Origin: Gemmatimonadota bacterium
Lineage (GTDB): Bacteria; Gemmatimonadota; Gemmatimonadetes; Gemmatimonadales; Gemmatimonadaceae
Direction of reading: 5' to 3'
DNA: 64,000 nt
Assembly (NCBI GenBank): GCA_003134685.1
Contig: PLCA01000002.1
Span: 211,966-275,965 of the forward strand
In this document: positions 56,426-59,967 of the stretch, piece after piece
Position numbering within the stretch: position 1 is the first letter of the stretch
How the letters are laid out: every line of letters begins with the position of its first letter
Notes under the pieces: generated by a model
What the model saw: only the letters and a program-made list of their open reading frames with translations
What the model was told of the DNA's origin: nothing
Database searches by the model: none
Position numbers and translations under genes: made by a program

Positions 56426-56953
56426 ATGCGGTTCTACGGATTCGCGGTTGCAGTTGGCATAATTTCGCTAGGCGCCTGCGCAGGCGGAGAAAAGAAGCCT
56501 GCTGACACGACGCACGTTGCGGTGGATACGAGCTCGACGACAACGACAACTACCGCTGGGGCGACGACGACCCCTGCCACAGCAGGCGGAGCCGTAGCAA
56601 TGGCTCCGATCACTGGTACCATCAAAACGGTCAATATGGTCGGAGATGCGAAGGGCTATCGGTACGAGCCCGCCAACTTCACGATCAAGCAGGGAGATGG
56701 TGTCAAGTTCGTCGTGGTGAGCATGGGTCCGCACAACGTCGCATTTGACCCCGCGACGATTCCGCCTGATGTAAAAGGCCAGCTCGATGCGAACATGGGC
56801 ACGGACAAAATGGGTGAGCTTTCCAGCAACATGAAGATGAATCCCGGCGAGTCGATCACGATCTCGTTCGGCAACATTAAACCCGGCCAGTACCCGTATC
56901 ATTGCGTTCCGCACCTTGCTCTGAACATGAAGGGAGTCATCACGGTTCAGTAG
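56426..56953 (+). CDS. cupredoxin (plastocyanin-like) lipoprotein
   Basis: 175 residues. Lipobox LGAC (Cys18), then a Thr-rich low-complexity linker (about 27-55). The C-terminal blue-copper domain (about 62-175) keeps the type I copper ligands His103 (GPHNVAF) and Cys160, His163, Met168 (HCVPHLALNM). It should carry electrons or bind copper at the membrane. Good ribosome-binding site (GGGAGG). The gene ends at a strong terminator. Confidence 0.87.
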   Translation: MRFYGFAVAVGIISLGACAGGEKKPADTTHVAVDTSSTTTTTTAGATTTPATAGGAVAMAPITGTIKTVNMVGDAKGYRYEPANFTIKQGDGVKFVVVSMGPHNVAFDPATIPPDVKGQLDANMGTDKMGELSSNMKMNPGESITISFGNIKPGQYPYHCVPHLALNMKGVITVQ

Positions 56954-56973
56954 GCTGATTTGGATGACAGGAA

Positions 56974-56999
56974 CGGCGGGGCGAAGGCCCCGCCGTTTT
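56974..56999 (+). terminator. intrinsic terminator of the cupredoxin gene
   Basis: Perfect 9-bp GC stem (56974-56982 with 56987-56995), loop GAAG, followed by TTTT. Confidence 0.9.
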
Positions 57000-57136
57000 C
57001 TTATCGTCCCGTTAGATCCGAGCGGCGCTTAGATTGCGTTGTTGACGGGAAAAGTAGCGCGCCTCGGTCTGTCGGCCGGGATGCCCCAGGAACGGACCCT
57101 CTCGCGCGCGCGCCATACAAAGTGAATCTTTGACGC

Positions 57137-58861
57137 ATGAACGTTCATTACATGGCACGGATGAGCGGCGGCTCGGCCTACCTCTGGATGGCAGCACGCG
57201 CCAGAAACGCGCTTCGCCGGGTCGTGGTATTTGGCATCGTTGGGGGCGTGGTCTTTATCGGGGCATTGATCGCGTTCGTCCTCGTTCCGAGGAATGCTTC
57301 GCGAAGGGCGTTAGCAGTAGCCTCGAAAATCGAAGCCCGCACGGATTCCACGCCGACCGTCGCGGCGAGGGACCGCTATCTCGCTGAGCTTAACGCGACG
57401 GACTCGGTGTTGAATGCCACACGCCGCGCTCTGACGCCCGTTCCGGCAGCGGTAATAGATACCTTCCCGCCGGCGGTGCGCGCGCAGCGTGATTCGTTGG
57501 GGGCGGAGCTGGCAACGCTCAATCGCTTGATCGACAGAGCCGAGAACGCTCCCCTTCCCACCTCGTATCGCGCGCTTGCCGCATCGCCAGTAGTCGGCGC
57601 CGATCCCAGAGTGCGCATGCTGCTCGACTCTTTGGCGGACGTTGAGCGCGACAGAAACGCGTTTGGGGCAGTGGGTGGAGTCGACCCGGTATATCTGTCA
57701 CTGACGTCCAGGGCAAATGCGATTGGCCGTCAAATACAGGGAATCGCCGACGCAAAACGCGGTGAAGTTCGTGGGAAGCTGGCGCTGATACGCCCTACCC
57801 CCGCTCCGGTAGTGAAGCCTGTCATAACGGTCGATACAATAAAGCTCGTCGCTCAGCGCGCGACCGCCCAACAAAACTATACGGCAGCGACAGCGCAGCT
57901 GGATCAGATAAACCAGAAAAACACTCGCATCGACCGTGAGTCCGCGCATGCCCGCGAGCTTGCTAACGTAGGTGCTCCACCGTGGGCGATGCTCGCCGCC
58001 GCGGTGGTGCTCGCACTTGCGGTTGGATTTGCGGCCTCGTTCGGAACGGAGCTCAAACGGCCGCACATAGCTGACCCGCGCGAGGCGGAGCAGATAAGCG
58101 GATCGCGTGTGCTCACCGTGATCAAGCCGCCGGAAGTCGTCGTGGAAAGAAGCCGTCGACAGGCGGATGTCGAGGCGCCGCCGCTGATCGATGTCGTGTC
58201 GGAGAGTTACAGAACTCTCTACCTGCACATCGCGTCGGTGGAAGCGAGCGTCCCAATCGTCACGATCACCGGCGACGACCCGGGCATTGTCGCGACTGTC
58301 GCGGCGAACCTTGCCGCGTCCGCTGCGTATGAAGCGCGCAGCACGCTGCTCGTCGACGTCGATCCGACCACGTGCAGCGTCGCGAGCGTCCTGCGAATCC
58401 GACCCGACCCCGGGCTTTCGGGAATCATCATGGGCAGCTCGACCTGGCCGGAAGCCATCGTTCCGACGACAATTGGCCGCGACCGTCCGCTCGATGTGCT
58501 TCCGAGCGGCACGCGTCGCTCCGGACTTCCCGAAGCAAGTGTCGTCGAAGATGTGCGCAAAGAGCTGGCTCGCATGCAGCGGCGCTATGATTTCATCATC
58601 ATCGCGGCTCCAACCAGCTACGTTCAGCGGAGCGCCAGCAGCATCATCCCGGCTCCTGACGTGATCCTCTGTGCGCGAATCGCCCACACCACTGTGGATG
58701 GGCTCAAGACCGCCGTAGCCAGTCTCCGCGGAGCTGACATGCGCATTCACGGTCTCGTGCTGTGGGACGCGGAAATGCCGCAGCTGGAAACGCGCGAAGA
58801 AATGCTCGGGGCGACGCGACAATCAGGAGCGTTTCAGCCGGAGCTCGCGACAGCGCGGTAA
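57137..58861 (+). CDS. Wzc-like bitopic protein with degenerate ATPase domain
   Basis: 574 residues. Two membrane helices (about 28-50 and 278-302) flank a helix-rich periplasmic part with coiled-coil tendency, as in chain-length/tyrosine kinase proteins of capsule synthesis. The cytoplasmic part (about 350-560) has the BY-kinase/MinD fold (ESYRTLYLHI, then strands in order), but Walker A reads TGDDPGIVATVAANLA (residues 378 on; no Lys), and Walker B IIIAAP (487-492) lacks Asp. The middle motif VDVDP is kept. No C-terminal Tyr cluster. Catalytic activity is unlikely. The gene is followed six bases later by the fRMsr gene. Confidence 0.72.
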   Translation: MNVHYMARMSGGSAYLWMAARARNALRRVVVFGIVGGVVFIGALIAFVLVPRNASRRALAVASKIEARTDSTPTVAARDRYLAELNATDSVLNATRRALTPVPAAVIDTFPPAVRAQRDSLGAELATLNRLIDRAENAPLPTSYRALAASPVVGADPRVRMLLDSLADVERDRNAFGAVGGVDPVYLSLTSRANAIGRQIQGIADAKRGEVRGKLALIRPTPAPVVKPVITVDTIKLVAQRATAQQNYTAATAQLDQINQKNTRIDRESAHARELANVGAPPWAMLAAAVVLALAVGFAASFGTELKRPHIADPREAEQISGSRVLTVIKPPEVVVERSRRQADVEAPPLIDVVSESYRTLYLHIASVEASVPIVTITGDDPGIVATVAANLAASAAYEARSTLLVDVDPTTCSVASVLRIRPDPGLSGIIMGSSTWPEAIVPTTIGRDRPLDVLPSGTRRSGLPEASVVEDVRKELARMQRRYDFIIIAAPTSYVQRSASSIIPAPDVILCARIAHTTVDGLKTAVASLRGADMRIHGLVLWDAEMPQLETREEMLGATRQSGAFQPELATAR

Positions 58862-58867
58862 CCGGCA

Positions 58868-59362
58868 ATGGCCGATACAATTCCTGATCTGAGAAACGTG
58901 CCGAAGGCTCGCGCCTACGCCGAGCTGAAAGGACACAGCGATGCCATTCTCGAGGGAGTGGATGACGATGTCACGGCGATGGCCACGATGGCCGCTCTGG
59001 TGCATCATGCGTTCGGCCATCTATGGACCGGCTTCTATCGTGTGGTCGTCCCCGGACAGCTTCTCCGAGTCGGGCCGTATCAGGGAAGCCTCGGCTGCCT
59101 CGACATTGCGTTTGGCCGGGGAGTATGTGGGACGGCCGCCGCGGAAATGAAAACCCTAATTGTTGCGGACGTCGAAAAATTTCCCGGTCATATCGCCTGT
59201 GATGCACGAGCACGGTCCGAAATCGTCGTCCCCGTTCTCGATCGACGGGGTGATTTAATCGCGGTTCTCGACGTAGATTCTGGCCAGCTGAATACGTTCA
59301 AGGCAGAAGACCAACAGGGGCTCGAACGACTCGTATCCTGGTTCGCGACATTGAAGCAATGA
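58868..59362 (+). CDS. free methionine-(R)-sulfoxide reductase (GAF type)
   Basis: 164 residues, a single GAF domain. The three Cys residues of fRMsr are in place: Cys77 (GCLDI), Cys87 (GRGVCGTA) and Cys111 (HIACDA), plus SEIVVPV. It reduces free Met-R-sulfoxide using thioredoxin; cytoplasmic. Overlaps the next gene by four bases (ATGA). Confidence 0.92.
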   Translation: MADTIPDLRNVPKARAYAELKGHSDAILEGVDDDVTAMATMAALVHHAFGHLWTGFYRVVVPGQLLRVGPYQGSLGCLDIAFGRGVCGTAAAEMKTLIVADVEKFPGHIACDARARSEIVVPVLDRRGDLIAVLDVDSGQLNTFKAEDQQGLERLVSWFATLKQ

Positions 59363-59967
59363 CAGTCACCGGCTATTCCGACGCGATCAACCACGCACTA
59401 GCGTTCGCGGCCAAGCATCACGACCGCCAGGTGCGAAAGGGAACGAAGCTTCCGTACCTCACGCATCCCGCAAACGTGGCTTTGATCCTCACTCGATATG
59501 ACCGCGACAACGACACGGTCGTCGCCGGAATCCTGCACGATGTGATCGAGGATTGTGTCGGAGAGGGTTATACCAGGGAGATGCTGGAGCAGCGAATCGG
59601 CGACAAGTTCGGTTCGAGGGTTCTGGATACGGTGTTGGCTGTCACCTACCGCAAAGTCGACGACGACGGAGTGGACCTGTCGGGCGAAGACCGCAAATCA
59701 GACTATCTGGAGCGACTCGAAGGGGCGAGCGAAGAAGCGCGCTGGGTTTGCGCGGCCGACAAGATTCACAACGCGTCATCTATCGTTGCGGATTTGCGGA
59801 GAACTGTGGATGCCGAGACGATCTGGGGCCGATTCGGCGGGGGCAGAGCCGGAACAGGAAGATGGTATCGCCAGGTCTACGAGCGACTTCGCGACGTCGG
59901 ATTCGATGCTCCAATCATGGCGGAGCTCGACAAGACTTCCGCCGAGCTTCAGGAACTCGCCGGCTGA
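59359..59967 (+). CDS. HD-domain hydrolase (SpoT/MESH1-like)
   Basis: 202 residues. HD-domain ligands are His in YLTHPANVA (about 34), HD in ILHDVIED (about 56-61) and Asp in CAADKIHNAS (about 134). The pattern resembles the hydrolase half of RelA/SpoT and small MESH1-type enzymes, which cleave (p)ppGpp or NADPH. The substrate is not proven. No synthetase domain. Co-transcribed with fRMsr. Confidence 0.8.
   Translation: MTVTGYSDAINHALAFAAKHHDRQVRKGTKLPYLTHPANVALILTRYDRDNDTVVAGILHDVIEDCVGEGYTREMLEQRIGDKFGSRVLDTVLAVTYRKVDDDGVDLSGEDRKSDYLERLEGASEEARWVCAADKIHNASSIVADLRRTVDAETIWGRFGGGRAGTGRWYRQVYERLRDVGFDAPIMAELDKTSAELQELAG

Follow-up and report, generated by a model that had tools for sequence, protein, structure and literature searches.

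The open reading frame at positions 57137..58861 (+ strand) of the window, i.e., the 64,000-nucleotide stretch of a Gemmatimonadaceae genome analyzed here, encodes a 574-residue membrane protein that, by sequence, profile searches, and a structural model, is a degenerate Wzc/PCP-2a-type relative of the bacterial tyrosine (BY) kinases. It is a variant BY pseudokinase, fused to its membrane part, stripped of the co-polymerase core, conserved across a bacterial family, and encoded in a non-polysaccharide locus, and we consider it reasonably probable that it is a non-catalytic, phosphorylation-independent membrane scaffold. To our knowledge, few bacterial tyrosine pseudokinases have been described, and those we found all act within polysaccharide pathways; an open literature search returned EcpK and inactive CapB1 and no paper joining Gemmatimonadota (or Gemmatimonas) with a BY-kinase.

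An earlier note, made from the DNA sequence, had proposed a BY-kinase fold for this protein and named structure comparison to Wzc/CapB as a check. In Pfam, the protein matched AAA_31 alone, at a borderline 27.0 bits against a cut-off of 27.0, and the NCBIfam BY-kinase models matched well under their cut-offs (TIGR03018, 51.7 bits with a cut-off of 230.65; TIGR01007, 43.3 bits; Wzc, 39.9 bits). When a 19-member profile was searched against the PDB, Wzc, BceF, CapAB, Etk, and VpsO ranked ahead of MinD/ParA, with E values of 2.9e-17 for Wzc 3la6 and 1e-6 for MinD, and the window protein used as a single query found CapAB 2ved at an E value of 2.9e-9. An AlphaFold2 model built from 17 sequences (mean pLDDT of 79.1, full-length pTM of 0.53) was superimposed by VIA on CapAB 3bfv with a Z score of 25.6 and an rmsd of 2.4 over 222 residues and on Wzc 3la6 with a Z score of 23.3; model residues 15-546 matched full-length Wzc 7nhr_B with a Z score of 23.3 and an rmsd of 4.2 over 276 residues. 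Foldseek gave a BY-kinase match of the model at an E value of 7.5e-14, and Soj/MinD/ParA structures scored lower in the model comparison, in rows from a Z score of 14.3. BY-kinases came first in both the profile and the single-sequence searches, and the proposal stands that this reading frame has the predicted BY-kinase Rossmann-type fold of CapAB/Wzc rather than an unrelated one.

The protein has a cytoplasmic juxtamembrane segment around WMAARARNALRR (57179..57223), in which W17 and R21 are nearly invariant. Two transmembrane (TM) helices, placed by hydrophobic stretches and by model helices 29-65 and 282-307, would flank a periplasmic domain: TM helix 1 covers residues ~30-51 (57224..57289) and TM helix 2 residues 282-307 (57980..58057), and the short part between them, residues 52-281 (57290..57979), is all-helical in the model. 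A conserved linker (58058..58186) containing P309, E316, R338, R340, and R341 follows; it is the equivalent of the CapA/Wzc juxtamembrane region, with the CapAB alignment starting at residue 308. The pseudo-BY-kinase domain comprises residues 351-546 (58187..58774), as placed by profile searches and the structure match, and is followed by a C-terminal tail without a Tyr cluster (58775..58858). All of these features lie on the + strand. The protein shares with Wzc/Etk/BceF and CapAB the BY-kinase fold (Z scores of 22 to 26), the two TM helices, the linker, the domain order, and a clear sequence relation. Unlike Wzc/CapAB, it has no Walker A Lys, Walker B Asp, Tyr tail, Wzz, or GNVR, its P-loop is one residue shorter, and its gene lies outside a polysaccharide cluster.

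We then compared the motifs among 112 fetched loci holding the pseudokinase, 90 of which were left at an 80% identity cut. The set excludes a 144-residue remnant (L037), two duplicates (L019 and L020, of L039 and L038), and true-kinase and ParA loci, and it omits at least 18 profile hits (G089, G093, G095, G097, G105, G107, G108, G111, G122, G125, G128, G142, G159, G174, G178, G187, G195, and G196), as well as a weak second match in G157. The P-loop remnant TGDDPGIVATV (58268..58300), which reads TGDDPGIVATVAANLA in the window, contains no Lys; in L040, a true kinase encoded by the window genome, the corresponding loop is TSPMPGDGKTTSAANLA. Lys was found in this loop at 0 of the 112 loci, as was any insertion or deletion. 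Both HMMER and HH-suite required one gap here, indicating that the loop is one residue shorter than that of Wzc/CapB. Gly is kept at G379 in 94 loci, Asp at D380 in 85, and Asp or Glu at D381 in 76, and the acidic GD[DE] occupies the site where phosphates would be expected. In the Walker B remnant YDFIIIAAPT (58586..58615), Asp is replaced by A490, and no locus among the 112 has Asp at this position (Val in 49, Ala in 28, Ser in 13, Thr in 10, and others and gaps in 12, of which 2 are gaps). No Tyr is present in the last 35 residues of the window protein or at 108/112 loci, with a single Tyr at the other 4; as a control, 18 of 20 frames picked as true kinases had 4 to 9 Tyr in their last 60 residues, 2 of the 20 (L207 and L218) being probably wrong frames. 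The EX2RX2R motif, described as a ring-interface motif of CapB in PMC3795738, survives as ESYRTLY (58202..58222), with Tyr instead of Arg at the last position. It has largely turned into [ED]xxRxxY: of 110 loci, 100 have an acidic residue at the first position, 76 an Arg at the second, and 77 a Tyr at the third. ExxRxLR was found in 15 of the 20 true-kinase frames.

The earlier note had read from the window a Walker A motif without Lys, a Walker B motif without Asp, no Tyr cluster, and a kept A'-type VDVD; each of these readings was confirmed, and the orthologue check that it had proposed recovered the motif loss at 112/112 loci, with no intact-motif orthologue found. A local accident or sequencing error as the source of the motif loss is ruled out by the same count. 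On these grounds, normal ATP binding and phosphorylation switching would not be possible for the pseudokinase. The retained A' motif, LLVDVD (58346..58363; D407 and D409), could still bind some ligand or metal, with Asp at D407 in 107/112 loci. This residue and D409, which is Asp in 90/112 loci, would have to serve an unconventional nucleotide or metal site if the protein were an enzyme after all on a P-loop fold; we find this very unlikely, given the shortened, Lys-less loop with acidic residues at the phosphate site, the universal loss of the Walker B Asp, and the change of D409 to Ala in 16/112 loci.

In a tree that includes 18 true BY-kinases of the phylum, has no fixed root, and contains some long rows, the pseudokinase rows formed one side of a branch with a support of 100/99. 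HH-suite aligned residues 111-545 with residues 314-765 of the true fused BY-kinases (probability of 99.8, E value of 3e-30), spanning the periplasmic helices, TM2, the linker, and the kinase, and residues 112-281 matched the second half of the true BY-kinase periplasmic region. No Pfam Wzz or GNVR match was found in 19/19 pseudokinases at E values up to 10; as a control, Wzz was found in 4/5 and GNVR in 5/5 true BY-kinases of the phylum. The presence of these domains in the true relatives indicates that the co-polymerase core was lost along with catalysis. Altogether, the ancestor of the pseudokinase was a fused protein of the Wzc type (PCP-2a), and the losses (the P-loop Lys together with one residue of that loop, the Walker B Asp, the Tyr tail, and the Wzz/GNVR core) are common to the entire family clade. 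The chain-length-protein topology claimed earlier stood with regard to the two TM helices and the domain order and failed with regard to the periplasmic part, which lacks Wzz and GNVR. This part is predicted to be all-helical (mean pLDDT of 85.6). Examined alone, it gave no Foldseek match with an E value of <0.001, and VIA-align returned generic helical bundles (best Z score of 9.2), with Wzc not among the matches listed. In one locus, L033 (G034:C37), TM1 is followed almost immediately by TM2, the periplasmic part being gone and the pseudokinase domain retained. The L037 remnant (G024:C180; 5389-5821 of its locus) consists of TM1, TM2, and the last pseudokinase strand and sits between the cupredoxin and HD genes.

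We examined selection in seven same-genus comparisons, in which dN/dS was 0.031-0.127 for the whole gene, similar to the values of neighbor genes, and 0.017-0.138 for the pseudokinase domain. In 6/6 comparisons giving both values, dN/dS of the pseudokinase domain was below that of the periplasmic part. Since most pairs are close to saturation at synonymous sites, the closest pair, with L003, is the safest; its dS is 0.39 and its dN/dS is 0.095, with 0.055 for the pseudokinase domain. The open frame is kept in 18/18 same-genus loci. Among the 90 non-redundant rows, conservation peaks outside the old catalytic loop: in the juxtamembrane segment (W17, 98%; R21, 100%; 83-84 rows), around TM2 and the linker (E305, 100%; P309, 99%; E316, 97%; R338/R340/R341, 91-94%), at D70, D164, G197, and D233 in the periplasmic helices, at R401, D407, and T518, and at W543 and P548. 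The juxtamembrane helix, the two TM helices, the helical periplasmic part, and the BY-kinase fold are under purifying selection, mostly at one locus. The eroded motifs, the loss of the gene in some lineages, and the 144-residue remnant would suit a decaying pseudogene; the dN/dS values, the open frames, and the distribution described below make decay exceedingly unlikely, and we rejected that reading on dN/dS and distribution.

The 19-row profile matched 156/179 genomes of the family at an E value of 1e-12, true kinases included, and pseudokinases were separated from true kinases at E < 1e-33, plus one fragment. Among good genomes, defined as at least 90% complete and at most 5% contaminated, 77/105 carried the pseudokinase and 28/105 had none by this criterion; the gene is dispensable, and some lineages lost it. 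In genome G100, it lies at 172734-174440 (locus L112). Across 249 genomes of the phylum, the matches listed outside the family aligned to the latter half of the profile model only and lay almost all in frames of ~700-1030 residues, and the best of them (G040; E value of 5.2e-32) has an intact Walker A. Among 19 named records, 16 were titled Gemmatimonadaceae, Gemmatimonadetes, or Gemmatimonadales, the remaining 3 being L128 (unidentified bacterium), L136 (labeled Omnitrophota), and L140 (a weak partial hit, Longilinea). A horizontal origin via Candidatus Omnitrophota was rejected for L136, which shares a stretch of 6091 bases with Gemmatimonadetes L135 at 100% identity; its contig is probably mislabeled or mis-binned in the public genome.

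This distribution bears on the question of polysaccharide export. With true BY-kinases called at a TIGR01007 E value of 1e-25, 62/77 carriers had one, compared to 16/28 non-carriers, and an OPX exporter was detected in 63/77 carriers, compared to 16/28 non-carriers (Fisher p of ~0.02 in each case, uncorrected for relatedness). That carriers are richer in both leaves room for an envelope-glycan role, and this weak positive association, the PCP-2a descent, and the precedents of EcpK and HfsB (PMC12004946) would fit a non-canonical polysaccharide co-polymerase that is encoded off-cluster and supports Wzx/Wzy without phosphorylation, like EcpK/EpsV or HfsB/HfsA. We nevertheless hold this to be unlikely: Wzz and GNVR are missing in all members scanned and present in true relatives, no OPX was detected in 14/77 carriers and neither OPX nor BY-kinase in 5/77 (G001, G002, G023, G083, and G107), the neighbors are not polysaccharide genes, and the L033 orthologue has no periplasmic part. 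Together, the Wzz/GNVR loss and the carriers without BY-kinase, OPX, or both weaken a direct capsule-export role, and since the pseudokinase persists where a true BY-kinase and OPX were not found, it probably performs some task other than the catalytic step in exporting capsule.

Comparison with known pseudokinases sharpens these distinctions. According to PMC12004946, the Myxococcus xanthus protein EcpK and the Caulobacter protein HfsB are stand-alone BY pseudokinases in polysaccharide pathways; the authors' data and models have each of them binding a PCP-2 that lacks a kinase and serving as a scaffold. The same text mentions non-canonical PCP-2a proteins without catalytic residues. Like EcpK/HfsB, the Gemmatimonadaceae protein has the BY-kinase fold without working Walker motifs or a Tyr tail. 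Unlike them, it carries a membrane part in the same chain, from which the PCP core has been lost, and its locus has redox/stress-type neighbors; the A' motif, absent in EcpK according to that paper, is kept. CapB1 and PtkB are described in PMC3795738 as inactive BY-kinases with a proposed regulator role, and the window protein resembles them as a BY-kinase relative without activity, judged here from its sequence. In CapB1, however, the nucleotide site is preserved, and the structure 4jlv contains ADP-Mg, whereas the site of the Gemmatimonadaceae pseudokinase is lost. The modulation proposed in that source would, if applied here, have the pseudokinase inhibit or modulate the true BY-kinases of its own cell through mixed rings. 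Two true BY-kinases in the window genome (G000:C6 and C11) and the partly retained ring motif agree with this; 15/77 good carrier genomes without a detected true BY-kinase argue against it, and we judge it decidedly unlikely.

A scaffold accommodates these observations best. Assembly of the Wzc octamer is governed by phosphorylation of its Tyr tail, according to PMC11986026; a protein that has lost the loop Lys, the catalytic residues, and the Tyr tail should be unable to use this phosphorylation/octamer cycle. Lacking the usual ATP binding and phosphorylation switching, the pseudokinase would act through binding: it may be an oligomeric or docking scaffold and couple the helical domain in the periplasm to a partner in the cytoplasm via the conserved linker and the pseudokinase surface. 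Oligomerization is a candidate property only, given the altered EX2RX2R motif, with Tyr at the last position in 77/110 loci. The earlier suggestion of a pseudokinase acting as a scaffold or regulator is still the best reading; the scaffold function itself we infer. The protein belongs to a large natural family (77/105 good genomes) in which the kinase was inactivated a single time, along with loss of the co-polymerase core, and everything else was retained. Such a family would show that the function of the BY-kinase fold and membrane part is separable from phosphorylation and chain-length control, and it provides a natural alignment for locating function-bearing surfaces.

The genes around the pseudokinase are, in order, a cupredoxin gene, the pseudokinase, a GAF-domain gene, a RelA/SpoT-type HD gene, and an opposite-strand gene that we take to be ispG. 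As had been claimed, no polysaccharide cluster was found among the neighboring genes, and fRMsr-like and HD genes follow directly. The cupredoxin/plastocyanin-like protein (56426..56953, +; domain search), with a lipoprotein-type signal by reading, is a conserved upstream neighbor; in 85/99 loci with enough room, its gene immediately precedes the pseudokinase gene in the same orientation. In the intergenic region between it and the pseudokinase lies a GC-rich hairpin with a T-rich tail (56974..57003, +), terminator-like, with a z of -6.4 for 56955-57015; a consensus terminator scan listed no site at 56974-57003 despite this strong hairpin. The GAF-domain protein (58868..59362, +; domain search), fRMsr-like by its motif, starts 6 bp after the pseudokinase and overlaps by start/stop with the small HD hydrolase (59359..59967, +; TIGR00691, 60.4 bits, below cut-off). 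By their spacing, the pseudokinase, GAF, and HD genes look like one transcription unit. Within 2.4 kb downstream, HD was found in 68, fRMsr in 28, and either in 71 of the 89 loci with room.

In other genera (e.g., L026, L045, and L102), a small membrane protein, DUF6992 (PF22503), is encoded between the pseudokinase and fRMsr/HD, at 21/25 sampled loci and 50/118 in a wider count. DUF6992 was rejected as an obligate partner; it is still at 4/5 pseudokinase-less loci and absent from 18/18 same-genus loci. At L172-L175, the cupredoxin and HD genes remain at the locus with no pseudokinase, indicating that the gene is dispensable and its neighbors are independent of it. HD homologues of other families (L176-L181) had no adjacent cupredoxin, fRMsr, or pseudokinase in the fetched stretch, and the locus thus yielded no intact ancestor. 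The cupredoxin, DUF6992, and HD/fRMsr products are candidate partners of the proposed scaffold, by position only. We advance more tentatively the idea that a whole Wzc-type protein moved out of polysaccharide export, lost its kinase and co-polymerase functions, and may now serve the family as a membrane-spanning scaffold or sensor within a locus for envelope redox/alarmone functions, formed by the cupredoxin lipoprotein, DUF6992, the fRMsr-like protein, and the HD hydrolase. The HD gene of the window, possibly a small alarmone hydrolase, neighbors ispG across a large part of the family, and in L027 and L032 a gene between the cupredoxin and pseudokinase genes presumably encodes a UV damage endonuclease, as read from its motif.
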